Source: a virus
Direction: 5' to 3' (one strand)
Virus record (IMG/VR): IMGVR_UViG_3300045950_000096
Span: 1-30,438 of that record
DNA length: 30,438 bases
Shown piece by piece: positions 8,980 through 24,756 of this stretch. Position numbers and translations under genes: made by a program. Under the pieces are notes generated by a model that was not told the origin of the DNA, ran no database searches, and saw only the letters and a program-made list of their open reading frames with translations. Position 1 is the first letter of the stretch; each line of letters starts with the position of its first letter.

Positions 8980-9268
8980 AGCTGAAGCTGGAAATCAGCC
9001 CCGACCTCGTCGCGATGATGCACGCGGAAATCGCCGCGGGCGAGAAGGCCGTCACCACCGCCATGCGCGAGGCGGGCGCGGGCCTCAAATCCGCCTGGCG
9101 CGGCCAGATCACCGGCGCGGGACTGGGCGCCCGGCTCGGCAACTCGATCCGGCTTTCGACCTACCCCAAGGGAGGCGAAAGCCTGAACGCCGCGGCGCTG
9201 GTCTGGTCGAACGCGCCGGTAATCGTCGGCGCGCATGACACAGGGCCGCTGATCCGGTCCAAGGATGG
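8976..9268 (+). pseudogene. 5' fragment of neck/tail-completion gene (DUF6441-like), split by IS110
   Basis: The frame begins MKLKLEISPDLVAMMHAEIAAGEKAVTTAM and keeps the DUF6441-like pattern (GAGLKSAWRGQITGAGLG, SIRLSTYPKGGESLNAAALVWSNAPVIV) up to LIRSKDG. It then enters the IS element and stops after two foreign residues (LS). The remainder continues at 10431 in the same frame as FWLAIPTPAAG; joined at DG/FW the two give an uninterrupted protein of about 207 aa. By position (after FII, before the tail terminator) the intact gene would encode a neck or tail-completion protein. The truncated ~98-aa product probably does not work. Confidence 0.88.
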
Positions 9269-9284
9269 GTTGTCTTAAGAATCG

Positions 9285-9480
9285 TCCCGGCTCCTGTGCG
9301 ATACGGGAGCCGCTCTCCGGCACCTCATACATGCCGGAGAGCGGCGGGGGACGGGTCGAAAGGATGGAGGTTCCCAAGGACCGGTCAGAAGTTGGATCGC
9401 CCCCGCCTTTCGCATGTCCTGAACGGATAGGTGGGGGATGCCACGGCATTGCCCCGTACGACAAGCACAGGAAACGAAAG
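9285..9480 (+). ncRNA. Candidate bridge RNA of the IS110 element
   Basis: The non-coding left end folds into clear hairpins. CGGCTCC (9288-9294) pairs with GGAGCCG (9306-9312). CGCTCTCCGGCA (9311-9322) pairs perfectly with TGCCGGAGAGCG (9332-9343) around a 9-nt loop. CCCCCGCC (9400-9407) pairs with GGTGGGGG (9430-9437, one G-U) around a 22-nt loop. IS110-group elements are known to express a bridge RNA from this region whose internal loops pair with target and donor DNA. The 7-mer CCAAGGA at 9374-9380 also occurs in the target flank at 9259-9265, so the segment around it may be the target-binding loop. RNA ends are guessed. Confidence 0.55.
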
Positions 9481-9483
9481 GCA

Positions 9484-10416
9484 ATGCACGATACCATCGG
9501 CGTCGACATTTCCAAAGACACACTCGACATCCACCGTCTTTCCGACGGCAAACACATCCGGTTCGGCAATGACAAGGCAGGGCTGGCAGCCCTGCGCCGC
9601 TGGATCGGCAAGACTCGCGTCCGTGTCGTCTACGAGTCGACCGGGCGCTACCATCGCGACATGGAGGGGGTTCTGGACACCGCGGGCCATGCACTGGTCA
9701 AGGTGAACCCCGGTCGCGCGCGCAGGTTTGCCCAGGCTGCGGGGTATGGTGCCAAAACCGACCGCGTCGATGCTGCCATGCTCGCACGGATGGGGGCGGT
9801 GCTCGATCTCGATGCCAAACCTGTTCGCACCGACAGCATGCATGAAATCAGGGAGTTGCACATCGCCCGCATCGGTCTGGTCAAGGATCGCACGGCATGC
9901 CGCAACCGACTGCATGGCGCGCGCAACAAGGTTGTCCTGGCCCAGCTCCGCGCGCGTCTGAAGCAGGTCGAAAGCCAGATCGCGCAGATCGACACCGAGC
10001 TGCAGCGCCTCGTCACGAACGATCCCGGGCTCGCGCATCGTTTCGGGATCCTGATGTCGGTTCCTGGAATCGGCCCTGTCGCGGCTGTCGCGATGATCGT
10101 CGAAATGCCCGAACTGGGCACCTTGGACGGCAAGGAGGCCGCCAGCCTCGCCGGGCTCGCCCCGATCACCCGCGAGTCAGGCGTATGGAAAGGGAGGTCG
10201 CGCATCGGCGGCGGTCGACGCGGACTGCGCAAGGCACTCTACATGCCGGCGCTGGTCGCCATCCGGCACAACCAGCAGCTCGGCCAGATCTACCAGCGGC
10301 TCTGCAGCGCGGGAAAGCCAGCCAAACTCGCCATCACGGCGGTGATGCGCAAGCTCCTAATCCTTGCCAACGCACTGATCCGAGATGACCGAAAATGGGC
10401 CGACGCGGCTCCTTGA
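9484..10416 (+). CDS. IS110-family transposase (DEDD recombinase)
   Basis: A 310-aa protein starting MHDTIGVDISKDTLDIH at 9484. The RuvC-like N-terminal domain shows the DEDD set: D8 (GVDISKD), E51 (VVYESTG), D93 and D96 (KTDRVDA). A helical region follows. The C-terminal Tnp_20 domain begins with the helix-hairpin-helix MSVPGIGPVAAVAMIVEMPELG (residues 191-212) and contains SLAGLAPITRESG and GRSRIGGGRRGLRKALY; a serine here (S232 or S239) is the likely nucleophile. The open frame extends upstream to 9265, but that part is the structured RNA region. The gene looks intact and the element may still be active. Confidence 0.95.
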   Translation: MHDTIGVDISKDTLDIHRLSDGKHIRFGNDKAGLAALRRWIGKTRVRVVYESTGRYHRDMEGVLDTAGHALVKVNPGRARRFAQAAGYGAKTDRVDAAMLARMGAVLDLDAKPVRTDSMHEIRELHIARIGLVKDRTACRNRLHGARNKVVLAQLRARLKQVESQIAQIDTELQRLVTNDPGLAHRFGILMSVPGIGPVAAVAMIVEMPELGTLDGKEAASLAGLAPITRESGVWKGRSRIGGGRRGLRKALYMPALVAIRHNQQLGQIYQRLCSAGKPAKLAITAVMRKLLILANALIRDDRKWADAAP

Positions 10417-12319: not shown

Positions 12320-13258
12320 ATGGCACGCGCACACGGCGCGCGGGCGCAGATGGCGCTTGCGTTCGAGACAGTTTACGGCACCCCGCCCGCCAGCGGCTAT
12401 CGGCTGATGCCCTTCGCCCGCACCACTCTCGGCGCGGAACAGCCGCTTCTGAACAGCGAACTGCTGGGCTATGGCCGCGATCCGCTCGCCCCCATCAAGG
12501 ATGCCGTCACCGCCGATGGCGAGGTGGTGGTGCCGATCGATGTGGAGGCCTTCGGCTTCTGGCTGAAGGCCGCTTTCGGATCCCCGACCACGACCGGCAC
12601 CACGCCCAAGACCCACACCTTCCAGTCGGGGAACTGGACCCTGCCCTCCATGGCCATCGAGGTGGCCATGCCCGAGGTGCCGCGGTTTGCGATGTATGCG
12701 GGCTGCGTGATGGACCAGCTGTCGTGGCAGATGAGCCGATCGGGCTTGCTGACGGCCACCGCACGCCTGATCGCGCAAGGCGAGGCGATTGCGGCCACCA
12801 CCGCCGCAGGCACGCCGACCGCGCTCGGCCTTCAGCGCTTCGGCCATTTCAACGGGGTGGTGAAGCGCAACGGCACGGCGCTGGGCAACGTCGTCTCGGC
12901 CGAGATCACCTATGCCAACGGCCTCGACCGGATCGAGACCATCCGCAACGACGGCAAGATCGAGGGCGCCGATCCCGGCATGGCCGCACTGACCGGCCGG
13001 ATCGAGGTGCGCTTCGCGGATAGCGCCCTCGTCACCCAGGCCATCGACGGCACGCCCTGCGAGCTCGAGTTCGCCTACAGCCTCGGGGCCAATGCCAGCT
13101 TCACCTTCACCGCCCATGCCGTCTACCTGCCCGTCCCGCGGATCGAGATCCCGGGGCCGCAAGGCATCCAGGCGACCTTCGACTGGCAGGCCGCCAAAGC
13201 CACCAGCCCCGCCCGCATGTGCACCGCCGTCCTCGTCAACACCGTCACGGGATACTAA
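12320..13258 (+). CDS. Phage tail tube protein
   Basis: A 312-aa beta-rich protein, MARAHGARAQMALAFETVYGTPP, typical of the siphoviral tail tube family seen in alphaproteobacterial phages. Conserved-looking parts are GYRLMPFARTTLGAEQPL, VPIDVEAFGFWLKAAFG, HTFQSGNWTLPSMAIEVAMPEVPRF and a C-terminal SFTFTAHAVYLPVPRIEIPGPQGIQATFDWQA. The protein stacks as hexamers to form the tail tube through which DNA passes. It is followed 2 bp later by the chaperone gene, as V is followed by G in lambda. Confidence 0.9.
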   Translation: MARAHGARAQMALAFETVYGTPPASGYRLMPFARTTLGAEQPLLNSELLGYGRDPLAPIKDAVTADGEVVVPIDVEAFGFWLKAAFGSPTTTGTTPKTHTFQSGNWTLPSMAIEVAMPEVPRFAMYAGCVMDQLSWQMSRSGLLTATARLIAQGEAIAATTAAGTPTALGLQRFGHFNGVVKRNGTALGNVVSAEITYANGLDRIETIRNDGKIEGADPGMAALTGRIEVRFADSALVTQAIDGTPCELEFAYSLGANASFTFTAHAVYLPVPRIEIPGPQGIQATFDWQAAKATSPARMCTAVLVNTVTGY

Positions 13259-13260
13259 CC

Positions 13261-13698
13261 ATGATCCGCCTGAACCTGTCCAACCGGCCCGAGTGGCTGG
13301 ACCTGCTGCCCGGCCTGCGCGTTCTGGTGGCCCCACTGACCACCGCGCTGATGGTCTCCGCCCGCGCCGATCCCGCCATCGACGGCCTGTCAGAAACCTC
13401 CAGCCAGGAGGACATGGCCCTCGCGATGGCCAAGGCCGTCGCCCGTCGCGCCGTTCTGGATTGGGAAGGGGTCGGCGACGATGACGGCAACCTCGTGCCC
13501 GTCAGCCCGGCCGGGATCGACGCCCTTCTGGAAATCTGGCCGGTCTTCGAGGCCTTCCAGGCGCAATACGTCGCCCGCGGCCTGATGCTGGATCAGGAAA
13601 AAAACGCCTCCGCGCCCTCGCCGACTGGTCCTTCGGCGGGGGCGACGGCTACTGCGCGGCCTGCGCGGGGCCCTGCCCGGACTGCCCCGCAAAGCTGA
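13261..13698 (+). CDS. Tail assembly chaperone, gpG-like (zero-frame product)
   Basis: A 145-aa protein starting MIRLNLSNRPEWLDLLPGLRV 2 bp after the tube gene. The body (to about residue 110) is a plausible folded domain: PLTTALMVSARADPAID, QEDMALAMAKAVARRAVLDWEGVG and IDALLEIWPVFEAFQAQYVARGLMLDQ. After the slippery site at 13599-13605 the zero-frame continuation is low-complexity (SAPSPTGPSAGATATARPARGPARTAPQS) and looks like a reading of non-zero-frame DNA. The chaperone keeps the tape measure soluble and guides tube assembly. Position and frameshift signal support the G assignment. Confidence 0.85.
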   Translation: MIRLNLSNRPEWLDLLPGLRVLVAPLTTALMVSARADPAIDGLSETSSQEDMALAMAKAVARRAVLDWEGVGDDDGNLVPVSPAGIDALLEIWPVFEAFQAQYVARGLMLDQEKNASAPSPTGPSAGATATARPARGPARTAPQS

Positions 13699-13940
13699 AC
13701 CGGCCGCTGACAGTCGAGGGCTGGCAGGTCTGGGACCTGACCCAGCGCCTCGGCGGTCAGCTGCGCATCGCGCCGGGCGCCGTGATCGGGTGGGACATGG
13801 GCGCGGCCCTCACGCTGGCACAGGCGCTGGGCGTCGATGTCCTGATCGCCGCCGAACTGCTGCCCGAGATCGAGGCGGTGATGGTGCGCAAACTCAACGA
13901 GCAGATGGCCGAGCGTTCAACGGCGATGACCCCGATCTGA
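13261..13940 (+). CDS. Tail assembly chaperone frameshift fusion, gpGT-like (226 aa)
   Basis: Reading the zero frame to AAC at 13603-13605, then slipping back one base, gives 115 + 111 residues ending at the TGA of 13938-13940. The extension reads RLRALADWSFGGGDGY, a Cys cluster CAACAGPCPDC (CX2C-X3-CX2C, zinc-binding-like), then LTVEGWQVWDLTQRLGGQLR and a helical end with LAQALGVDVLIAAELLPEIEAVM. This frame has protein-like composition, opens after a stop at 13482 and has no ATG or GTG before 13783, so it cannot be translated as its own full-length gene. In lambda the GT fusion is required for tail assembly and binds tape measure and tube. Confidence 0.75.
13599..13644 (+). promoter_or_regulatory. 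Programmed -1 frameshift signal (slippery site plus hairpin)
   Basis: A_AAA_AAC at 13599-13605 is a classic X_XXY_YYZ slippery heptamer in the zero frame, within a run of seven A. Seven bases later a 12-bp stem begins: CGCCCTCGCCGA (13613-13624) pairs with TCGGCGGGGGCG (13633-13644), all paired with one T-G, around an 8-nt loop. Heptamer, spacer and stem meet the usual requirements for -1 ribosomal frameshifting. Confidence 0.8.
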
Positions 13941-13975
13941 CGCCATGAGACCAACCGGCGCGCCGCGCGCATGAT

Positions 13976-14176
13976 TCAGGTTCGATCGGATCGATCCCGA
14001 TAGCCGTTTGGTACAGCCCCACGCGCCAGTCCCTTCAGGTCCTGCTTTGCCGGAAGCGAACGGGACTGTGCCTCCTCGCCCTCATCAAATCCACGCAGTG
14101 GCAACCCGAGCCCCGCTTGATCGGTGGGCTTGGGTTCTTCATCGCCGTGCTGCGTGCTTTGGCTTTGGCCGATCAT
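13976..14176 (-). CDS. Small antisense ORF (66 aa), hypothetical
   Basis: On the minus strand AAAGGA sits 7 bp before an ATG at 14176 and opens a 66-aa hydrophilic, acidic frame (MIGQSQSTQHGDEEPKPTDQ) ending DLKGLARGAVPNGYRDRSDRT. Third codon positions are about 65% GC by my count, lower than in the structural genes around it. It fills most of the 319-bp gap between chaperone and tape measure, which lambda-like phages do not normally have. I do not recognise the family. It could be another lysogen-expressed cassette, a small regulator, or chance; the ribosome binding site is the main support. Confidence 0.45.
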   Translation of the reverse strand: MIGQSQSTQHGDEEPKPTDQAGLGLPLRGFDEGEEAQSRSLPAKQDLKGLARGAVPNGYRDRSDRT

Positions 14177-14259
14177 CGTCAGTCCTTTGGCAACTGAAAC
14201 AGAGACTCCAAGTCCTGCCCTCCGCCCTAAGCACTTACCACAGAATCAAGGTTTTCCTC

Positions 14260-16722
14260 ATGGCCGATAAGAAGGTCTCCGTCCGCCTCGTCGCGGAGGG
14301 CGGACGCCGCGTGCGCGCCGAACTGGAAGGTGTCGGTGAGGCCGGGGCCCGTGGCTTTGGCCGCCTGTCGCGCGAGATGGAGCTGGCGAACACGCGGCTG
14401 GCCGCCTTTGCGCGCCGGGCGGGGCTTGCCCTCGGGGCCGCTGCGGCCGCTGCCACGGCCTCGCTCGGGCTGATCGTTCGCACGACGGTCGAGAGTGCCG
14501 CAGAGATCAGGCAGTTTGCGCAGGTTGCCGATGCGACGCCCGAGGCGCTGCAACGCTGGTCGGCCGGGGCGCGGACGGTCGGCATCGAGCAGGAGAAGCT
14601 AGCCGACATCCTGAAGGACGTGAACGACCGGGTGGGCGACTTCCTGCAGACCGGCGGCGGGCCGATGGCGGATTTCTTCGAGAACGTGGCCCCGCGCGTG
14701 GGTGTGACGGCCGACCAGTTCGCGCGTTTGTCGGGGCCGGAAGCCCTGCAGCTCTATGTCGACACCCTCGAGCGCGCCGGGCTCAGCCAGCAAGAGATGA
14801 CCTTCTATCTAGAGGCGATGGCCTCAGACGCGACACGGTTGATCCCCCTCCTGCGCAATGGCGGGGCCGAAATTGCGCGGCTTGGCGACCAAGCCTTCGA
14901 TCTCGGGGCGATTCTGGACAGTGATGCCCTCGAAGCCCTGCGCCGCACGCAACTGGCGCTGGGCACCGTATCCCTCGTCTTCGACGGCCTTCGGAACCGC
15001 ATCGCGGTCGCCGTGGCCCCGACCATCGAGGCGCTTGCCAATGCCTTCGTGGCACTCGCCTCCGATGGTGGCATTCTGCGGTCGGCCATCGACACGCTGA
15101 TCGGCAACCTTGGAAGGCTGGCGTCGTATGCCGCGACCTTCGCAGCTGTCATGGCAGGCCGCTGGGTCGCAGGTATGGCGGTGGCTGCTCTGTCGGTTCG
15201 CGGCCTCGCGACGGCGCTCGTGTTCCTGCGCGGCGCTCTGATCCGCACCGGCATCGGGGCGCTGATCGTCGGCGCGGGCGAACTGGTCTATCAGTTCTCG
15301 CAGCTGGTCGCCCGGGTCGGTGGCGTGGGCGAGGCCTTCCGGCTGCTCGGGGATCTGGCCCGCGAAGTCTGGTCGCGCATCGGTCTGTCGCTGGATGCGG
15401 CATTGGCGCGGATGGCGGCCGGATGGGAGAGCCTGAAAGCGGCAGGACTTTCGGCCTTGGAAGGCACCATCGCAGGCGTCGTCAGCTTCGGCGACCGGAC
15501 GGCCGCAATCTTCCAGGGGGCCTATGACGCTGCGGTCGCAATCTGGGGCAGTCTGCCCGGGGCCATCGGCGACTTCGCCTTCCAGGCCGCGAACGGTCTG
15601 ATCTCCGGCGTCGAGGCGATGCTGAACGGCGTCGTCACCCGCATCAACAGCTTCATCGAGACCCTGAACGCGGCCCTCGCGCTGCTGCCCGAATGGGCCT
15701 CCGGCGAAGGTGGCGTGCGGATCGGCATTCTCGATCCGGTGGAACTGGGCCGCATCGGCAACCCGTTTGAGGGAGCCGCGACCGCTGCTGGTGCCGCCGC
15801 CGCGGATGCCTTCTCGGCCGCGCTGTCGCGGACCTATCTGGAACCACCCGATCTCGGGCTCGGGGCCATGGCTGACGATGCCCGCGCCCGGGCCGACGGC
15901 TATCGCGAGGCGGCCGGGATGCTCGCCGATGCCGCCGGTCGGCCGCTCGCCAGCTGGCAGGCGCTGAAGGATGCCGTGACCGGCACGGGGACCGAGGCCG
16001 AGACCGCGCTGGCGGATGCGGCTGGCGCCGCCGATGCCCTGAACAACGAACTGGGTGAGACCACCGAAGCTGCCGGAGGTGCCGGGGCCGCCGCGCGGGA
16101 TGCTGGGGCTGCGGCGGCGGACGGGGCCGACCAAGCCGCCACCGGTTGGGCTGCGGTCACCGCTGCTTTGGCCGACTACGCCGCCAAGGCGCGCGACATC
16201 GGCGGGGATATCGGCAGCGCGCTGGTGGGCGCGTTCCAGAGCGCCGAGGACGCCATCGGCGACTTCGTGAAGACCGGCAAGCTAGACTTCCGCGACCTGG
16301 TCACCTCGATGATCGCCGACCTCGCCAAGCTCGCCGCCCGGCGCTTCATCCTCGGTCCTATTGCGAACGCCCTTTCCGGCGCGCTGGGCGGTGCGGGCGG
16401 GATTTTCGCGAACATCCTGCACACGGGCGGGATGGTCGGCGCGCCCGGTCCCGGCCGGATGGTCCCGGCGCTGGCCTTCGCCCATGCCCCTCGCATGCAT
16501 AACGGCGGTTGGGCTGGGCTGCGGCCCGACGAGGTGCCCGCGATCCTGCAACGCGGTGAGCGTGTGCTCTCGCGCCGGGAGGCGGCGGGGTACGGCCGGG
16601 CGGGTGCGCCCACCATCAACGTCACGATCAACGCCCGCGACGCCGAGAGCTTCCGCCAGTCCCGAACGCAAGTCGCCAGCGACATCGCCCGCGCTGTGTC
16701 GCTCGGGCGGCGCGGCATGTGA
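14260..16722 (+). CDS. Tail tape measure protein, lambda gpH family
   Basis: The start at 14260 (MADKKVSVRLVAEGGRRVRAEL) gives 820 aa; the open frame reaches back to 14008 but the extra part is the reverse of the small antisense ORF. A long N-terminal helical region is followed by hydrophobic segments at about residues 288-346 (YAATFAAVMAGRWVAG, LIRTGIGALIVGAGEL). An Ala-rich central part comes next. The lambda-type C-terminal tape measure domain starts near residue 680 (DLVTSMIADLAKLAARRF), followed by HTGGMVGAPGPGR and VPAILQRGERVLSRREA. The protein sets tail length and is ejected with the DNA. The ribosome binding site is weak (AAGG about 10 bp upstream). Confidence 0.93.
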   Translation: MADKKVSVRLVAEGGRRVRAELEGVGEAGARGFGRLSREMELANTRLAAFARRAGLALGAAAAAATASLGLIVRTTVESAAEIRQFAQVADATPEALQRWSAGARTVGIEQEKLADILKDVNDRVGDFLQTGGGPMADFFENVAPRVGVTADQFARLSGPEALQLYVDTLERAGLSQQEMTFYLEAMASDATRLIPLLRNGGAEIARLGDQAFDLGAILDSDALEALRRTQLALGTVSLVFDGLRNRIAVAVAPTIEALANAFVALASDGGILRSAIDTLIGNLGRLASYAATFAAVMAGRWVAGMAVAALSVRGLATALVFLRGALIRTGIGALIVGAGELVYQFSQLVARVGGVGEAFRLLGDLAREVWSRIGLSLDAALARMAAGWESLKAAGLSALEGTIAGVVSFGDRTAAIFQGAYDAAVAIWGSLPGAIGDFAFQAANGLISGVEAMLNGVVTRINSFIETLNAALALLPEWASGEGGVRIGILDPVELGRIGNPFEGAATAAGAAAADAFSAALSRTYLEPPDLGLGAMADDARARADGYREAAGMLADAAGRPLASWQALKDAVTGTGTEAETALADAAGAADALNNELGETTEAAGGAGAAARDAGAAAADGADQAATGWAAVTAALADYAAKARDIGGDIGSALVGAFQSAEDAIGDFVKTGKLDFRDLVTSMIADLAKLAARRFILGPIANALSGALGGAGGIFANILHTGGMVGAPGPGRMVPALAFAHAPRMHNGGWAGLRPDEVPAILQRGERVLSRREAAGYGRAGAPTINVTINARDAESFRQSRTQVASDIARAVSLGRRGM

Positions 16723-16731
16723 GGATCAGCT

Positions 16732-17358
16732 ATGGCATTTCACGAGGTCAGGTTTCCGGACAACATCAGCCGGGGCGCGCGCGGCGGCCCCGAGCGGCGC
16801 ACCCAGATCGTCGAACTGGCAAGCGGGGCCGAGGAACGCAATGCGAGCTGGGCCAACAGCCGCCGCCGCTACGACGTGGCCTATGGCATCCGCCGCGCCG
16901 ACGATCTGGCGGCGGTCGTCGCTTTCTTCGAGGCCCGCAACGGCCGTCTGCATGGGTTCAGGTTCAAGGACTGGGCCGATTTCAAATCCTGCTTGCCGTC
17001 GCAGACCCCGACCTCAACCGATCAACCCATCGGCACCGGCAACGGCAGCACGAACACCTTTCAGCTGACCAAGCGCTACACCTCCGGCGCGCAGTCCTGG
17101 TCGCGGGTCATCACCAAGCCTGTCGCCGGGACGGTCACCATCGCCCTGAACGGCACGCCGCAGGCCTCCGGCTGGTCGGTTTCCACGACCACCGGCCTCG
17201 TCACCTTCACCACCGCCCCGGCCGCTGGCGTCAACATCACCGCAGGCTTCGAATTCGACGTCCCGGTCCGCTTCGACACCGATGTCCTCGACGTCACCCT
17301 CGACCTTGAACGCCTCGGGTCGATCACCTCGATCCCCCTCGTGGAAATCCGCACATGA
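16732..17358 (+). CDS. DUF2460 (TIGR02217) tail protein, GTA Orfg12-like
   Basis: A 208-aa protein with the hallmark N-terminus MAFHEVRFPDNISRGARGGPERRT and the conserved YGIRRADDLAAVVAFFEARNGRLHGFRFKDWADF. The beta-rich remainder ends GSITSIPLVEIRT. This family is the Orfg12 distal tail protein of the Rhodobacter capsulatus gene transfer agent, which joins the tube to the tip. GAGG lies before the start, and the stop overlaps the DUF2163 gene by 4 bp. Confidence 0.93.
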   Translation: MAFHEVRFPDNISRGARGGPERRTQIVELASGAEERNASWANSRRRYDVAYGIRRADDLAAVVAFFEARNGRLHGFRFKDWADFKSCLPSQTPTSTDQPIGTGNGSTNTFQLTKRYTSGAQSWSRVITKPVAGTVTIALNGTPQASGWSVSTTTGLVTFTTAPAAGVNITAGFEFDVPVRFDTDVLDVTLDLERLGSITSIPLVEIRT

Positions 17359-18239
17359 AATCCCTGAACCCTGCGCTGCAGGCGCATCTCGACGACGGCA
17401 CCACGACGCTCGCCTGGTGCTGGCGCATCACCCGCGCCGATGGCGTGGCCTTCGGCTTCACCGATCACGACCGGACGCTGTCGTTCGACGGGACCGAGTT
17501 CGAACCGGAAAGCGGGCTGACGGCCTCCGAGGTGCGATCCGGCTCCGACCTCTCAGTTGATGCGCAGGACGCGCAAGGCGTGCTGTCGTCGGACCGGATC
17601 ACCGAGACGGACATCCTCGATGGCCGCTGGGACGCCGCAGTTGTCGAGGTCTGGCGCGTGAACTGGTCGGCACCGGCGCAGCGTGTGCTTCTGCGGCGCG
17701 GGGCCATCGGCCAGATCCGGCGCGGGCGGTTGGCCTTCGTGGCGGAGGTGCGAAGCCTCGCCCATGTCCTCGGCCAGACGGTGGGGCGGACGTTCCAGGC
17801 CAGTTGTGACGCCGCGCTGGGCGATGCGCGCTGCGGCGTGAACCTCGAGGCCCTGGCCTTCAAGGGCAGCGGCGCGGTCATCGATGTGCTGCGCGACCGG
17901 GCCTTCACCGCCAGCGGCCTTGGCGCCTTAGCGACGGGCTGGTTCGCCTTCGGGCTGGTCGAATGGTCGACCGGCGCGAATGCAGGGCGGCGGGTCGAGG
18001 TGCTGTCGCACGACCTCGTCGACGGCGTGGCCATCCTGACCCTGCTCGAAGCCCCGGTGCGCCCGATCACGGCGACGGATACCTTCGTGGTCCGCGCCGG
18101 TTGCGACAAGCGCCTCGCGACCTGCGGGATTAAGTTCGCCAATGTCGCGAACTTCCGGGGCTTCCCGCATATCCCCGGTCAGGATGCCGTGCTGCGCTAT
18201 GCCACCAAGGATGGCGGACACGAGGGGGCGGTGCTGTGA
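17355..18239 (+). CDS. DUF2163 (TIGR02218) tail tip protein, GTA Orfg13-like
   Basis: A 294-aa protein, MKSLNPALQAHLDDGTTTLAWCWRITRADG. Cysteines in family-specific places are C151 and C160 (CDAALGDARC) and C250 with C257 (CDKRLATC), followed by FANVANFRGFPHIPGQD; related lambda gpL uses such cysteines for an iron-sulfur cluster. The protein is part of the tail-tip hub. In GTA-type modules its stop normally overlaps or abuts the NlpC/P60 gene; here a 2.1-kb segment with an antisense operon separates the two. Confidence 0.93.
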   Translation: MKSLNPALQAHLDDGTTTLAWCWRITRADGVAFGFTDHDRTLSFDGTEFEPESGLTASEVRSGSDLSVDAQDAQGVLSSDRITETDILDGRWDAAVVEVWRVNWSAPAQRVLLRRGAIGQIRRGRLAFVAEVRSLAHVLGQTVGRTFQASCDAALGDARCGVNLEALAFKGSGAVIDVLRDRAFTASGLGALATGWFAFGLVEWSTGANAGRRVEVLSHDLVDGVAILTLLEAPVRPITATDTFVVRAGCDKRLATCGIKFANVANFRGFPHIPGQDAVLRYATKDGGHEGAVL

Positions 18240-18289
18240 TGAAACTGTCGGATCGGCATCGAGCTTTTGCCCTTTGTCTGGAGCCAGAC

Positions 18290-18808
18290 CTACGGCAACG
18301 GGAACTTGATGTCTTTGCCGAAGGTTAACCCGGACACCTCACAGGTCTTACGAAGTGCCAGTTTCAGTTGATCTTTGCTAATATTCTTGCTGATCCACCA
18401 TCCAGCATCGGTCTGAAGCACCGGCAAATGGGGGCTGCGACGATGGATATGACGCGGCTCCATCGCGACAAAGCGCCGTCCCGGAGTTTGGATTTCAGAG
18501 AGCGACGCCAACGCTTCCGGCGCGACTTCAGCCATCATTTCGACGATCCGACGAAACACACCGGCAAGCGTATCGGCTGCGAAACGCACCCCCATAAACT
18601 CTGCGGCGTACTTCCCGCGCTCTGGCGGAGGGATCAAATGCGACGGTTGATCGGATACATGCCGGTCGAGCTTTCGCGCGATCTCAAGACTTTTGTGCAG
18701 AGCCATTGCCGCATCGTCATCGAGCGCTGATCGCGCCGCCAGAATGGCTTCGACGAAAGGCATGGGCAGGGAGACAACGACCGCATTCGCAATGCTTAGG
18801 TGGTTCAT
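18290..18808 (-). CDS. Hypothetical protein (172 aa), third gene of XRE cassette
   Basis: The start MNHLSIANAVVVSLPMPF at 18808 overlaps the stop of the DUF4258-like gene by 4 bp, so it is translationally coupled. I do not recognise the family. An N-terminal hydrophobic stretch is followed by helical parts (VEAILAARSALDDDAAMALHKSLEIA, GVRFAADTLAGVFRRIVEMMAEVAPEALASL) and a basic C-terminal half (MEPRHIHRRSPHLPVL, WWISKNISKDQLKLALRKTCEVSG) that could bind nucleic acid. The C-terminal SKNISKDQLKLALRK has a helix-turn-helix-like rhythm, though this is weak. Lower GC than neighbouring phage genes suggests separate acquisition. Confidence 0.65.
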   Translation of the reverse strand: MNHLSIANAVVVSLPMPFVEAILAARSALDDDAAMALHKSLEIARKLDRHVSDQPSHLIPPPERGKYAAEFMGVRFAADTLAGVFRRIVEMMAEVAPEALASLSEIQTPGRRFVAMEPRHIHRRSPHLPVLQTDAGWWISKNISKDQLKLALRKTCEVSGLTFGKDIKFPLP

Positions 18809-19101
18809 GATACTCTCCCGCGGTTTCTGCCGTCGGCAGAATGCCCCTTTCCGTTGTAGTGATAGATCGTCACGAGGCTCTCGCCCTCAACAATGACCTT
18901 GGTCCCGCGCAGACGTTCAAGCTGCTGGATTTCGCGCCGACGTCGCTCAATCTCGCGGGTTGCATCTTTGTCGCTCAAAAAGAAAGCATCGTCCGCCACA
19001 CGGGTCGCGACGCTGAGGACAAGGCCGATGTCGGCATTACGGAACCCGCGCTGTCGCATCCTTGCTTCGGCGTGATGGGTGAAGTGGACGTCAGGCCTCA
19101 T
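18805..19101 (-). CDS. DUF4258-like small protein (98 aa), possible toxin
   Basis: The start at 19101 (MRPDVHFTHHAEARMRQRGF) lies 11 bp inside the XRE gene. The pattern F-x-H-H-A-x-x-R-M-x-Q-R-G, then an isoleucine/valine helix, charged helix EIERRRREIQQLERL and a final strand TKVIVEGESLVTIYHYNG, is typical of DUF4258, a family with BrnT/RelE-like size that often pairs with antitoxins. Coupling to an XRE regulator supports a toxin-antitoxin-like role, though reversed order and the extra third gene are unusual. Toxicity is not shown by the sequence. Confidence 0.7.
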   Translation of the reverse strand: MRPDVHFTHHAEARMRQRGFRNADIGLVLSVATRVADDAFFLSDKDATREIERRRREIQQLERLRGTKVIVEGESLVTIYHYNGKGHSADGRNRGRVS

Positions 19102-20092
19102 CGCTATCCTCCCCCTTGTCTGACACGTCTGTAACGGTTCCGACGTCCAGGTCGCCGACCAACGCAAGAAGCTCGGCCATCTCGGACTTGCGCTTGGCGA
19201 GTTCCTCCGCCGGAATGCGGCTGACGATCCAGGCAATCCTTTCGCCCGCATGTTCATCTCCGAGCAGGTTAGCCGGGATGTCCTTGAGCTTCACATGCCC
19301 TCGCAACAGGGCGTACTCGGCATCAGGGTCGTCTCCCGTAAGATCGCTGATTAACTCCGAGCCGATCCGATATTCGGGCATGCCCTCACTGGTTTTCCAA
19401 CCAGAGTCCCGGTCAAATGAAATTGTCTTTGCCCCAACCTGCGTCGCGAAGTGCTTGATAAAATCCGCGAAGGGGTTGTTTTGAGAGGGGTCATACCCGA
19501 GGTCATACACGTCGTCCGCGACTTCTTTTCCAAAAAGATCGCGGTTCTGAATGCACTGCCTCTCCTGATACGCACCATCTTCAGCGCGCAGATACGCAGA
19601 GTTCGCGAAAGCGAAGTGGCCACCGCCGAGGGCCATAAGCCTTGCTGCAGCTTCCTCGATCTCAGCGACACGTTCGCGGCGCCAGGCAAGGCTTCCTTCC
19701 GCCAGAAGTGCCGCAAACAGCGGCGCCATCACAATTTGCGAATGAACGGGAATGCCGTAGATGTGCTGGACCATGTTGAAGGCTAGTGCTGTCTCTGCAT
19801 CAAGCATGGCCCGCAACGGGCGATAGCCGAACTTCTTGAGCGATGCCTCGCGCTCTGCTGCGTTGGTGGGCGGCTTCGAGAGGGCATCTACCGTGACGCC
19901 GAGAGCCTTCGCCAAACCTTCTGCAGTGCGATCTTCGGCGCGATAGAAGGCTCCCTTGGTACTTTCTATCCGCTTGATCGTCGGAAGACTGACTCGGTTC
20001 TTGCCTTTGGTCGCGTCGGCAAGCTGCTCTTGCGTCAAGCGATTCATGTCTCGGTAGTACTTGATCGCGGCGGGATGGATCTTCGTGGTCAT
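19091..20092 (-). CDS. XRE-family helix-turn-helix protein with uncharacterised C-terminal domain (333 aa)
   Basis: The start at 20092 (MTTKIHPAAIKYYRDMNRLTQEQL) has an ideal AGGAGG site. Residues 5-70 form an XRE/lambda-repressor-type domain (RLTQEQLADATKG, VSLPTIKRIESTKG, AEGLAKALGVTVDALSKP). The rest is about 260 aa with no peptidase or membrane signature. It includes YRPLRAMLDAETALAFNMVQHIYGIPVHSQIVMAPLFAALLAEGSLAWRRERVAEIEEAA and a phenylalanine/aspartate-rich part, ending in a very acidic tail (VTDVSDKGEDSDEA). It heads the three-gene minus operon. Inverted half-sites upstream fit self-repression. It could be an antitoxin that neutralises the DUF4258-like protein, or a sensor-regulator; neither is proven. 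Confidence 0.75.
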   Translation of the reverse strand: MTTKIHPAAIKYYRDMNRLTQEQLADATKGKNRVSLPTIKRIESTKGAFYRAEDRTAEGLAKALGVTVDALSKPPTNAAEREASLKKFGYRPLRAMLDAETALAFNMVQHIYGIPVHSQIVMAPLFAALLAEGSLAWRRERVAEIEEAAARLMALGGGHFAFANSAYLRAEDGAYQERQCIQNRDLFGKEVADDVYDLGYDPSQNNPFADFIKHFATQVGAKTISFDRDSGWKTSEGMPEYRIGSELISDLTGDDPDAEYALLRGHVKLKDIPANLLGDEHAGERIAWIVSRIPAEELAKRKSEMAELLALVGDLDVGTVTDVSDKGEDSDEA

Positions 20093-20104
20093 TTGGTAGC
20101 CTCC

Positions 20105-20172
20105 TAGGTCATGCAGCAAACATGATCCTACACGGGGCAAAAATATAGGATCATCTTTAGTCAATGATACCA
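20105..20172. promoter_or_regulatory. Operator half-sites upstream of the XRE operon
   Basis: ATGATCCTA (20122-20130) and TAGGATCAT (20146-20154) are a perfect 9-bp inverted pair separated by 15 bp. Imperfect copies flank them: TAGGTCAT at 20105-20112 and ATGATACCA at 20164-20172, making four half-sites of alternating orientation around the AT-rich segment AAAAATATA. This fits a cooperative XRE repressor operator over the cassette promoter. No confident -35/-10 pair was found. From 20173 to 20319, before the NlpC gene, I see no gene or signal other than a ribosome binding site. Confidence 0.6.
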
Positions 20173-20319
20173 TTCAACAGCGAAAATACCGCTCACCACT
20201 TCAACACGCACGAGACCGAAGGGATACTCTTGATGCCAAATTCGCGTGCATTGAGTAGGCGACGACAACCCGGTGATGCTTCCCGGTATCACTCGGACGA
20301 ATCATCGAAGGAAGCGACA

Positions 20320-20748
20320 GTGTCCGATCCGACCCACGTCATTGCCGCCGCGCGGTCATGGCTGGGCACGCCGTACCACGACCAGGCCAGCCTGCGTGGG
20401 GTCGGCTGCGATTGCCTCGGCCTCGCGCGGGGCGTCTGGCGCGAGGTGGTCGGGCCGGAACCGTTCCCGATCCCGCCCTACAGCCGGGACTGGGGCGAGA
20501 CTGGGCCGAGTGAGGTGCTGGCAGATGGGGCGCGGGCGATGATGCACGAAGTCGCACCCGCCGATGCCCCACCCGGCGCGCTGGTCCTCTTCCGCATGAT
20601 GCCCCGCGCCATCGCCAAGCATGTCGGGATCCTGACCGGGGCCGACACCTTCCTTCACGCCTACGAACGCCTCGGCGTGATCGAGGAACCGCTGACGCCC
20701 GCATGGCGACGCCGCATCGCCTTCGCCTTCCTGTTTCCCGCACGCTGA
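20320..20748 (+). CDS. NlpC/P60 tail peptidase (TIGR02219), GTA Orfg14-like
   Basis: The start is taken as GTG at 20320 (VSDPTHVIAAARSWLGTPYHDQ) because GAAGGA lies 8 bp upstream and the family begins here; an upstream ATG at 20164 would add 52 residues of unrelated composition. The 142-aa protein has the catalytic cysteine C32 in GVGCDCLGLARG, and the histidine in AIAKHVGIL. In the GTA and related phages this cell-wall peptidase sits in the tail tip and cuts peptidoglycan during DNA entry. Its separation from DUF2163 by the antisense cassette is abnormal. Confidence 0.9.
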   Translation: MSDPTHVIAAARSWLGTPYHDQASLRGVGCDCLGLARGVWREVVGPEPFPIPPYSRDWGETGPSEVLADGARAMMHEVAPADAPPGALVLFRMMPRAIAKHVGILTGADTFLHAYERLGVIEEPLTPAWRRRIAFAFLFPAR

Positions 20749-20757
20749 GTTTCCGCC

Positions 20758-23700
20758 ATGGCCACGCTTGTCCTCGGCGCTGTCGGTTCCGCCATCGGCG
20801 GGGCCTTTGGCGGCGCGATCCTCGGCTTCTCTGGCGCAGCCATCGGCGGCTTCATCGGATCGACCATCGGTTCGGTGGTGGACAGCTGGATCGTCTCCTC
20901 GCTGGCCCCGGCTCAGAAGATCGAGGGTCAGCGCCTCGACAGCCTGCGCATCACTTCGGCCACCGAAGGGGCGATCATCCCGCGCCTCTACGGCCGCATG
21001 CGCATCGGCGGCAACATCATCTGGGCGACCGATTTCCGCGAGGAGACGAAGACCACGACACAGGGTGGTGGCAAGGGCGGGGGCGGCGGCAAGGTCCAGA
21101 CGACCGAATACCTCTACTATGCGTCCTTCGCGGTCGCCCTTTGCGAAGGCCCGATCACTGGCATCGGCCGCATCTGGGCCGATGGCAAGCCGCTCGACAT
21201 GACCGGCATCACCTGGCGCTGGTATCCGGGGAACGAGACCCAGACCGCGGACCCGTACATTTCGGCGAAGATGGGCGCGGCCAATACGCCCGCCTACCGC
21301 GGCACGGCCTACGTCGTCTTCGAGGAACTGCCGCTCTCGACCTACGGCAACCGCCTGCCGCAACTGTCCTTCGAGGTCTTCCGGCCGCTCGCGGATCCCG
21401 ACACCGCCGAAGGGCTGGTCAAGGCCGTGACCATGATCCCGGCCTCGGGCGAGTTCACCTATGCGACCGAGGCTGTTCGCAAGACCGTGGGCGCCACGAC
21501 CACGGTCTTCGGCCAGACCACCGGCGGCACGACCTCCGCCGAGAACCTGAACGCGCTGCCCGATGAGGCCGACATCGTCGTGGCGCTGGACCGTCTGCAG
21601 GCCATGGCCCCGGCCGTCGAAAGCGTCAGCCTGGTCGTCGCCTGGTTCGGCAACGATCTGCGCGCGGGCAACTGCACGATCAAGCCCGGCGTGGAGGTTT
21701 CGACCAAGGTCACCAGCCCGAAGGTGTGGGCGGTCAACGGGGTTTCTCGCTCGGGTGCCCATCTCGTCAGCCGCGATGCCGAAGACCGTCCCGTCTATGG
21801 CGGCACACCTGCGGATTTCGCTGTGGTGCAGGCGATCCGCGAGATGAAGGCGCGCGGGCTGCGGGTGACGTTCTATCCGTTCCTGTTGATGGACGTTCCG
21901 CCCGGCAACACCCTGCCGAACCCCTATTCGAACAACGCCGCCACGCCGGGCCAGCCTTCCTTCCCCTGGCGGGGCCGGATCACCTGTTCCCCGGCGGCAG
22001 GCTTTGCCGGGACGGCCGACAAGACCACCGCTGCAGCGACGCAGGTTTCCAGCTTCTTCGGCGCAGCCACCCCGGCGCAGTTCGCAGTTTCGGGCGACAA
22101 CGTGACCTGGATCGGCCCCTCGGGCAACTGGGGCCTGCGCCGGATGATCCTGCACTACGCCCATCTCTGCGCTGTGGCGGGCGGTGTCGATGCCTTCCTG
22201 ATCGGGACCGAGATGCGCGGGCTGACCACGATCCGGTCGGGGGCCAGCGCCTATCCGGCAGTGACGGCCTTCAAGGCGCTGGCGGCCGACGTGAAGGCGA
22301 TCCTCGGGCCGGGCACAAAGGTCGGCTATGCTTCCGACTGGTCGGAATACTTCGGTCACCAGCCGGGGGACGGCACGGGGGACGTCTATTTCCACCTCGA
22401 CCCGCTCTGGTCTGACGCCAACATCGATTTCATCGGCATCGACAACTACATGCCCCTCTCCGACTGGCGCGATGGGTTCGACCATGCGGATGCCCTGCAA
22501 GGCTGGCCCGCCATCCATGACCGCGGCTACCTGCAAGCGAACATCGCGGGCGGCGAGGGCTTCGACTGGTTCTATGCCAGCGCCGCCGACAGGTCGGCCC
22601 AGATCCGCACCCCGATCACGGACGGTGCCGCAGGCAAGCCTTGGGTGTTTCGCTACAAGGATCTGCGCGCTTGGTGGTCGAACCCGCATTTCAACCGGCC
22701 AGGCGGGGTGGAGAGCGGCACGCCCACGGCATGGGTGCCGCAGTCGAAGCCGGTCTGGTTCACCGAACTGGGGTGCCCCTCCATCGACCGGGGCACGAAC
22801 CAGCCGAACGTCTTCTTTGACCCGAAATCGTCCGAGAGCTTCACCCCCTACTTCTCGCGAGGCTGGCGCGATGACGCGATCCAGCGCGCTTACCTGGAGG
22901 CCAGTTATCTCTGGTGGGGTCAGGGCGCGAACAACCCGACCTCATCCGTCTACGGCGGCCGGATGGTCCACGTCCCCGAATGCGCCGCCTGGACCTGGGA
23001 CGCGCGGCCGTATCCGTTCTTTCCCGAGCTGACCGGCGTCTGGACCGATGGCCCCAACTGGCGGCTCGGTCACTGGCTGACAGGGCGGCTCGGCGCGGTG
23101 TCGCTGGCCGCGCTCGTACGCCACCTCTGCCTTCGCGCTGGGCTTGATGAGGCGTTGATCGACGTTTCCGGCCTCTGGGGCGCGGTGGAGGGCTATGTGA
23201 TCGGCGCGCTGGAAAGCCCCCGCGCGTCGATTTCCACGCTGGCACGGCATTTCGGCTTCGACGCCATCGAGACCGAGGGCGTGATCCGTTTCGTCATGCG
23301 CGGGCGGGCATCGAGCGTGACCTTGACGGTGGATGATCTGGTGGCCAGTCGTGAGGGCGAGGCCTTCGAACTGATCCGCGGTCAGGAGACCGAACTGCCG
23401 CAGGCGCTGAAGTGGCAGGTCGCGCGGGCGGATGAGGACTATGATGCCGCGCTAGTAGAAGCGCGAAGGATCACAGTCGACACCACCCGCATCGCCTCCG
23501 AGTCCTTCCCCATGGCAATCCCGCCCGAGGAGGCCGAACGCCGCTGCCGCCGTGCGCTGATGGAGGCGTGGATCGGTCGCGAGAGCGCCACCTTCCGCCT
23601 GCCGCCCTCGCGCCTTTCCCTCGATCCGGCCGACGTGATCCGGCTCGCGCATGACGGTCGGGAAGTCGAGTTCCGCCTCGTTTCCGTCGCCGATGCCGAG

Positions 23701-24756
23701 GCACGCGGGATCGAGGCGCTTCGCCAGGACCGGGCCGCCTACGATCTGCCGCCCGGCGATCCACGCCCGGCATCGCTCGCCAGCCCCGTCGTCTTCGGCA
23801 CGCCGGAGGTGGTTATGCTGGACCTTCCACAGATCAGCGAGGACCAACCCGCCCATCGCCCCTTGATCGCCGCCCATGCCAGCCCCTGGCCGGGTGAGAT
23901 CGCGGTGTTCCGCAGCGCCTCGACAGATGGGTTCGCGTTGCTCACGACCTTCGGCAGTCGGGCGCGGGTCGGCACGCTGGCCTTCGACTTCTTTCCGGGT
24001 CCGACCTCGCGCTTCGATCTGGGCAACGCGCTGGTCGTCGATCTGCTGGCTGGAAAGCTGGAAAGCGTGACCGACGTCGCGCTGTTCGGCGGGGCAAATG
24101 CGCTGGCGGTCGAGAGCGCCGCTGGCCTATGGGAGATCGTCCAGACTGGCCAAGCCGAACTGATCGCCCCAGGCCGGTATCGCCTGACCCGCCTGTTGCG
24201 CGGCCAGCGCGGAACGGAACATGCGATGGGCAATCCGGCCCCCGCGGGGGCGCGCGCCGTGGTGCTAGATGCGACGCTGGCCTCGCTACCCATCGCCGAA
24301 GCCGACCTTGGCCTGCCGTGGAACTGGCGGGTGGGTCCGGCCGCGCGCGCCGTCGGTGACGCGAGCTATGCTGCGCTGGGCTTCACCCCGACCGGGCGCG
24401 GCCTTGTCCCGTTCGCGCCGGTCCACGTCGAACAGCCGTGGCGCACGGCCCGCAGCCCGGGCGATCTGACGATCCGCTGGACGCGCCGGTCCCGCGCGCT
24501 CGTGGCCGATGCCTGGGAGCAGGTCGAGGTGCCGATCGCAGAAGACCAGGAAAGCTACGACGTCCAGATCCTCGACGGCGCTGCGATTAAGCGGACGCTG
24601 GCCAGCAGCACGGCCTCCGTCCTCTACACCGCCGCCCAGCAGACTGCCGATTGGGGTGCGCCGCTCGGCCCCGGCCAGACGCTCTCGCTCCGCATCTACC
24701 AGCTTTCGAACCGCCTCGGCCGAGGCACGCCTGCCTCCGTGACCCTTCAGTTCTGA
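20758..24756 (+). CDS. GTA TIM-barrel tail hub / host-specificity protein, Orfg15-like
   Basis: A 1332-aa protein. Residues 3-48 are a glycine-rich hydrophobic segment (LVLGAVGSAIGGAFGGAILGFSG). A tail-hub region with EGAIIPRLYGRMRIGGNIIWATDF follows. The GTA TIM-barrel domain (about 370-740) includes VTFYPFLLMDVPPGN, VGYASDWSEYFGHQPGDG (from 522), FIGIDNYMPLSDWRDG and PVWFTELGCPSIDRGTNQPN (from 666). The later part resembles phage tail-protein modules (YRLTRLLRGQRGTEHAMG, WTRRSRALVADAWEQ). It forms the tail-tip hub and is expected to touch the cell envelope. Ten bases separate it from both the NlpC gene and the following fibre gene. Confidence 0.93.
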   Translation: MATLVLGAVGSAIGGAFGGAILGFSGAAIGGFIGSTIGSVVDSWIVSSLAPAQKIEGQRLDSLRITSATEGAIIPRLYGRMRIGGNIIWATDFREETKTTTQGGGKGGGGGKVQTTEYLYYASFAVALCEGPITGIGRIWADGKPLDMTGITWRWYPGNETQTADPYISAKMGAANTPAYRGTAYVVFEELPLSTYGNRLPQLSFEVFRPLADPDTAEGLVKAVTMIPASGEFTYATEAVRKTVGATTTVFGQTTGGTTSAENLNALPDEADIVVALDRLQAMAPAVESVSLVVAWFGNDLRAGNCTIKPGVEVSTKVTSPKVWAVNGVSRSGAHLVSRDAEDRPVYGGTPADFAVVQAIREMKARGLRVTFYPFLLMDVPPGNTLPNPYSNNAATPGQPSFPWRGRITCSPAAGFAGTADKTTAAATQVSSFFGAATPAQFAVSGDNVTWIGPSGNWGLRRMILHYAHLCAVAGGVDAFLIGTEMRGLTTIRSGASAYPAVTAFKALAADVKAILGPGTKVGYASDWSEYFGHQPGDGTGDVYFHLDPLWSDANIDFIGIDNYMPLSDWRDGFDHADALQGWPAIHDRGYLQANIAGGEGFDWFYASAADRSAQIRTPITDGAAGKPWVFRYKDLRAWWSNPHFNRPGGVESGTPTAWVPQSKPVWFTELGCPSIDRGTNQPNVFFDPKSSESFTPYFSRGWRDDAIQRAYLEASYLWWGQGANNPTSSVYGGRMVHVPECAAWTWDARPYPFFPELTGVWTDGPNWRLGHWLTGRLGAVSLAALVRHLCLRAGLDEALIDVSGLWGAVEGYVIGALESPRASISTLARHFGFDAIETEGVIRFVMRGRASSVTLTVDDLVASREGEAFELIRGQETELPQALKWQVARADEDYDAALVEARRITVDTTRIASESFPMAIPPEEAERRCRRALMEAWIGRESATFRLPPSRLSLDPADVIRLAHDGREVEFRLVSVADAEARGIEALRQDRAAYDLPPGDPRPASLASPVVFGTPEVVMLDLPQISEDQPAHRPLIAAHASPWPGEIAVFRSASTDGFALLTTFGSRARVGTLAFDFFPGPTSRFDLGNALVVDLLAGKLESVTDVALFGGANALAVESAAGLWEIVQTGQAELIAPGRYRLTRLLRGQRGTEHAMGNPAPAGARAVVLDATLASLPIAEADLGLPWNWRVGPAARAVGDASYAALGFTPTGRGLVPFAPVHVEQPWRTARSPGDLTIRWTRRSRALVADAWEQVEVPIAEDQESYDVQILDGAAIKRTLASSTASVLYTAAQQTADWGAPLGPGQTLSLRIYQLSNRLGRGTPASVTLQF

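Follow-up and report, generated by a model that had tools for sequence, protein, structure and literature searches.

The 30,438-base viral record analysed here (at its full length, the window) contains a gene whose identification as a G/GT tail assembly chaperone gene, in a siphovirus with hosts of the Rhodobacteraceae type, is well supported. According to our explanation of the locus, in which we have high confidence, a minority of ribosomes would slip into the -1 frame with the help of an RNA hairpin and make a 226-aa GT protein, whose T part carries a knuckle of four cysteines (Cys4) that likely holds a structural zinc. Somewhat more cautiously, we lean towards the view that the chaperone half made only by frameshifting is a zinc protein in a large phage group whose members come mostly from Alphaproteobacteria, and that the Cys4 knuckle at the junction positions T. 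If so, tail assembly would at one step require a metal ion.

Gene context of the G/GT locus

The record represents a whole IMG/VR virus, and matches to Pfam and PHROG profiles revealed a siphovirus-like gene order from head to tail (Table 1). The order around the locus is tail tube, G/GT and tape measure, as is required of a lambda-type G/GT gene. The G open reading frame begins with ATG, and its last 30 codons overlap T; GT consists of 115 residues of G up to the heptamer followed by the 111 residues of T. No NCBIfam model matched G or GT. An IS110-family RNA-guided transposase gene was found inside the structural block at 9265-10416 (NF033542, 219.8 bits against a cut-off of 140). The tail genes at 16732-24756 (DUF2460, phiJL001 gp84-like hub and GTA TIM-barrel) resemble a gene transfer agent tail module, which we take to be like that of RcGTA.

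Table 1. Features of the G/GT locus and its surroundings in the window
Feature	Position	Strand	Basis or detail
Gene series: terminase, portal, tail terminator, tail tube, chaperone, tape measure, DUF2460, phiJL001 gp84-like hub, GTA TIM-barrel			
Tail tube, upstream of G	12320..13258	+	PF18906 Phage_tube_2, E 7e-60
G, zero-frame tail assembly chaperone, 145 aa	13261..13698	+	phrog_313 'Tail assembly chaperone', E 1.5e-28
Slippery heptamer A_AAA_AAC	13599..13605	+	sequence and frame; unchanged in all 113 close relatives
T, -1 frame extension, 111 aa	13605..13940	+	open for 111 codons; stop 13938-13940
Predicted G-T junction peptide			...QEGN-RISALAEWHFGK...
Stimulatory hairpin	13610..13648	+	MFE fold; core 12-bp stem 13613-13624 / 13633-13644
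Cys4 CX2C-X3-CX2C, YCAACAGPCPDCP, T residues 17-27	13653..13685	+	probable zinc site; sequence and alignment
C-terminal T core, PF24752 (DUF7697) / phrog_11212	13770..13916	+	PF24752, E 2.3e-27, T residues 56-104; phrog_11212, E 4.9e-28
Tape measure, downstream of GT	14260..16722	+	lambda-type PF09718, E 1e-23; phrog_8462, E 9e-154

The slippery heptamer in homologous loci

Codons 113-115 of G read GAA AAA AAC and thereby place A_AAA_AAC in the standard register for a -1 slip. By itself, the heptamer is not improbable as a chance occurrence: AAAAAAC is present twice in the window against 0.56 copies expected, and at least two copies appeared in 11 of 100 shuffles. The window alone was insufficient to dismiss a chance origin, which was ruled out by comparison with homologous loci. 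We collected 166 such loci; their sources were viral contigs, genomes of isolates, metagenome-assembled genomes and annotated phages. The heptamer at the junction was A_AAA_AAC in 159 of them, G_GGA_AAC in three and A_AAA_AAA in three, with ambiguous bases nearby in the remaining one, and the G frame sits at -1 to T in nearly all. The presence of the heptamer in relatives had been named as a test in an earlier, sequence-only reading of this DNA, and the comparative evidence shows more than chance.

A few loci contain six or eight A's, and their frames are fused or broken. Eight A's, with G and T in one frame, were observed in L002 (2484-2491) and in L003/L154 (the same contig, of Chelatococcus sambhunathii; 3338-3345 of L003), both isolate-derived contigs. 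These copies would make GT by default and would require slippage for G. Homopolymer errors or genuine indels could explain the six-A and eight-A variants; in L173, closely related to L003, the heptamer is A_AAA_AAC and G and T stand in the usual -1 relation.

The hairpin downstream of the heptamer

The heptamer is followed by a 7-nt spacer and the 12-bp stem of a hairpin, all as described in the sequence-only reading; the MFE fold adds 3 bp across a bulge, by which the spacer is possibly 4 nt. It is conceivable that the stem is a by-product of coding, because the codons with which T encodes Ala-Leu-Ala and Gly-Gly-Gly naturally complement each other. As the null model, synonymous T codons were resampled, with the G frame held stop-free and codon usage pooled from relatives. 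The hairpin had an energy of -31.1 kcal/mol, in comparison to -19.8 +/- 2.6 for the synonymous recodings (z -4.29), and negative z values were obtained for 21 of 23 divergent relatives (mean z -2.56 over the 23). L216 and L217 are the exceptions, with weak folds; most of the pooled codon usage derives from GC-rich relatives, which may make the null unsuitable for these two. Third-position changes amounted to 0.04-0.055 in the stem arms against 0.24-0.26 outside, meaning that synonymous changes are about five-fold rarer in the arms. Since the hairpin energy lies below that of the recodings and synonymous changes in the arms are scarce, the stem is selected as RNA. At this G/GT locus, selection on the stimulatory hairpin as RNA can be told apart from selection on the protein. 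In Rfam, the surroundings of the site gave one sub-threshold chance match only.

Conservation and predicted structure of T

The sequence-only reading had described a start-less -1 frame of 111 codons leading to a 226-aa product, and both the coordinates and the frame were confirmed. The earliest ATG, GTG or TTG in the T frame is the GTG at 13782, 59 codons in. A start codon between -60 and +45 of the junction was found in the T frame of 3 of the 166 loci only (two of them are the same contig), and the possibility raised earlier that homologs begin as a separate gene was not borne out. The amino-acid conservation of the -1 frame, another point put forward for checking, was clear among the 113 close relatives, where changes at third positions of the T frame reached 0.26 in comparison to 0.07-0.10 at first and second positions, a difference of about threefold. 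The part of T before the first internal start gave the same picture (0.263 against 0.07-0.08), as did the part after it. In its own frame, T shows purifying selection. Within the G/T overlap, the positions that change are the third of T codons and the second of G codons, and therefore T is the protein that is being kept.

The structure of T predicted with AlphaFold had a pLDDT of 91.9 and a pTM of 0.82. The top viral matches of this model in Foldseek were tape measure or tail assembly chaperone proteins from phages F20, Shivani, Loki, W011D and Solomon, with probabilities of 0.92-1.0 but E values of 0.04-0.15 (0.95-1.0 and 0.04-0.08 for the highest-ranking ones); CcrColossus gave a weaker fold match (probability 0.60). 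A model of GT, made for the naturally fused copy L003, was confident (pLDDT 92.6) and predicted one long helix, residues 93-134, that crosses the junction and reaches the first cysteines. Sequence and fold searches of the PDB with T, G and GT yielded nothing usable, and neither the T nor the GT model is similar to a solved structure. With one distant T as the query, a scan returned a single locus, identical to the query.

Alternative origins of the frame change and of T

RNA polymerase slippage on the seven A's, instead of slippage of the ribosome, could also change the frame, and the run itself, the existence of six-A and eight-A variants, and the in-frame fusion of G and T by eight A's in L002 and L003/L154 are consistent with it. 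We nevertheless regard it as very improbable: the same junction reads GGGAAAC, with three A's only, in Rhodobacter phages of this family, G_GGA_AAC was additionally found in L214, L216 and L234, the register X_XXY_YYZ is always observed, and the downstream hairpin is under selection. Even less credible, in our opinion, is that T is a separate small protein made from an internal start (GTG 13782 or ATG 13797). Such a protein is implied by DUF7697 and phrog_11212, both of which span T residues 53-104 only, and the depositors of two cyanophage records placed an ORF of its own starting inside T; however, residues 1-55 are as conserved as the rest of T and show the same codon-position pattern, the Cys4 motif and a WHFGGG motif are conserved upstream of the internal starts, and 163 of the 166 loci are without a start codon near the junction. 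We rejected an independent T gene.

The conserved heptamer and T frame, the selected hairpin and the phrog_313 match to G all support the earlier proposal of a tail chaperone made by programmed -1 frameshifting. Slippage in vivo, the G:GT ratio and the binding partners are what we infer. Most ribosomes would read G through to its stop at 13698, and a minority would slip by -1 on A_AAA_AAC, with the hairpin a few bases downstream helping, to produce GT. By analogy to lambda, G would coat the tape measure protein, and the few GT molecules would recruit tail tube subunits via T.

The Cys4 motif of T

The CX2C-X3-CX2C pattern that had been noticed in the extension is present. Four cysteines arranged as CX2C-Xn-C-Xm-C were found in 187 of 189 T domains, mostly with n = 3 and m = 2 (range 1-9 for n and 2-12 for m), and the two exceptions are frame-damaged or truncated copies. 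The earlier suggestion of a metal-binding variant of T was thus sound as to the cysteines, but they mark the whole subfamily and not just the phage of the window, and zinc is what we infer from them. The motif is kept in relatives at 31-50% identity, in cyanophage records, and in loci found in 399 genomes drawn from the same phylum. These loci exclude L240 and L248, which are truncated, L246, whose partial match does not cover the Cys region, and L253, whose match is not intact. Two contigs of human gut phages have the four cysteines in modified spacing. A Y or F always precedes the motif, and a P or R follows its last cysteine in nearly all cases. In the window, the four cysteines lie within the overlap with G. 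L208, L214 and L218 keep the motif even though their G stops 3 bases past the heptamer, and therefore it is not a by-product of the overlap.

The combination of fixed cysteines and loops of varying length indicates a structural metal site, and the metal is most likely zinc. Four cysteines with varying loops, preceded by Y or F and followed by P or R, have the usual look of a structural zinc knuckle. The knuckle, located just after the junction, most likely holds a structural zinc and would fix the link between the last helix of G and the T core. Alternatively, the four cysteines may form an iron-sulphur cluster or a redox switch, or bind no metal, which we consider possible but rather doubtful. 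The motif could bind other metals, and no fold match to a known zinc domain was found in the PDB; no zinc site could be transferred from a known fold, because no solved structure resembles our models. The zinc knuckle pattern described above argues against such other roles, and the CX2CX2CX3CP spacing of the [4Fe-4S] type is not kept. The prediction confidence of the Cys region was among the lowest inside T (pLDDT about 76-81).

In the library of papers searched, we found no report of a zinc or CxxC tail chaperone, of a cysteine motif in T, or of DUF7697; the mentions of zinc and CXXC in the paper on phage Loki, the one match that was read, concern other genes. As far as we have searched, the Cys4 T subfamily is an unreported variant, and the frameshift mechanism is ordinary.

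Relation of T to known families and G/GT systems

The C-terminal half of T corresponds to DUF7697 (PF24752; 95.1 bits against a curated cut-off of 27) and to phrog_11212, which was matched by 22 of 22 relatives. Neither family includes the Cys4 half or comes with a function. They resemble half a domain because gene callers start T at an internal codon, the first possible start. The two families represent the part of T that is visible to gene callers. Our results assign a function to both of these 'unknown function' families.

PF08809 (DUF1799) matched T with 14 bits only, below its curated cut-off of 26. A profile comparison of T with the DUF1799 T gave a probability of 95.8 (P 7e-9), and on this sequence evidence the T core described here is homologous to that of DUF1799. 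The alignment began at residue 33, just after the Cys4, and thus the knuckle occupies the place that the acidic linker has in DUF1799-type T. We drew 299 genomes of the phylum and obtained 28 PF08809 loci with a heptamer. In these sampled bacterial loci, as here, the T frame begins at A_AAA_AAC or G_GGA_AAC after a G-like ORF; in most of them, unlike in the window, this ORF stops immediately at the heptamer. The Cys4 is absent from all 28, whose T has at most two cysteines in its first 60 residues. By eye, the T of Enterobacter phage F20 is like that of DUF1799, and the Cys4 is absent from the T frames of F20, Loki and CcrColossus, all three of which were read. Our results define a subfamily of T domains that carry the Cys4 and are related to DUF1799.

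The locus shares with lambda G/GT the gene order, the -1 slip near the end of G and the start-less T; the Cys4 knuckle would probably set it apart from gpT. Long-tailed phages classically conserve frameshifting in their G/GT genes (PMC5009743), and according to PMC8601537 most of the phages it describes have a programmed frameshift. For the family described here it is not new either: the depositors of the RcC-cluster Rhodobacter phages RcBaka, RcKemmy and RcKai had already annotated a joined 'tail assembly chaperone' CDS. These phages have a G and T of the same family, 47-51% identical over GT, and share the Cys4 and the junction, but they carry G_GGA_AAC where the window has A_AAA_AAC.

The gap between GT and the tape measure gene

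In 121 of the 166 relatives, GT and the tape measure gene lie about 10 nt apart, and several dozen have larger inserts, mostly of several hundred bases; in the window the gap corresponds to 13941-14259. The minus strand of the gap carries toxin-antitoxin-like genes or a common antitoxin-like tail in 29 of the 166, among them PIN/VapC with a MazE/AbrB-like partner (L098, L119), HigA/HigB-like (L023, L070) and RelE-like (L157) genes, and the gap has the appearance of a cargo site within the tail operon. The window has a 66-aa minus-strand ORF at 13976-14176, without a Pfam match, whose C-terminal end, DLKGLARGAVPNGYRDRSDRT, is nearly the same as in the VapB-like protein of L098 and the HigA-like protein of L070; it is perhaps an orphan antitoxin remnant. 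The insert of the window is about 98-99.7% identical in L005, L031, L033, L044, L065, L087-L089, L101 and L102.
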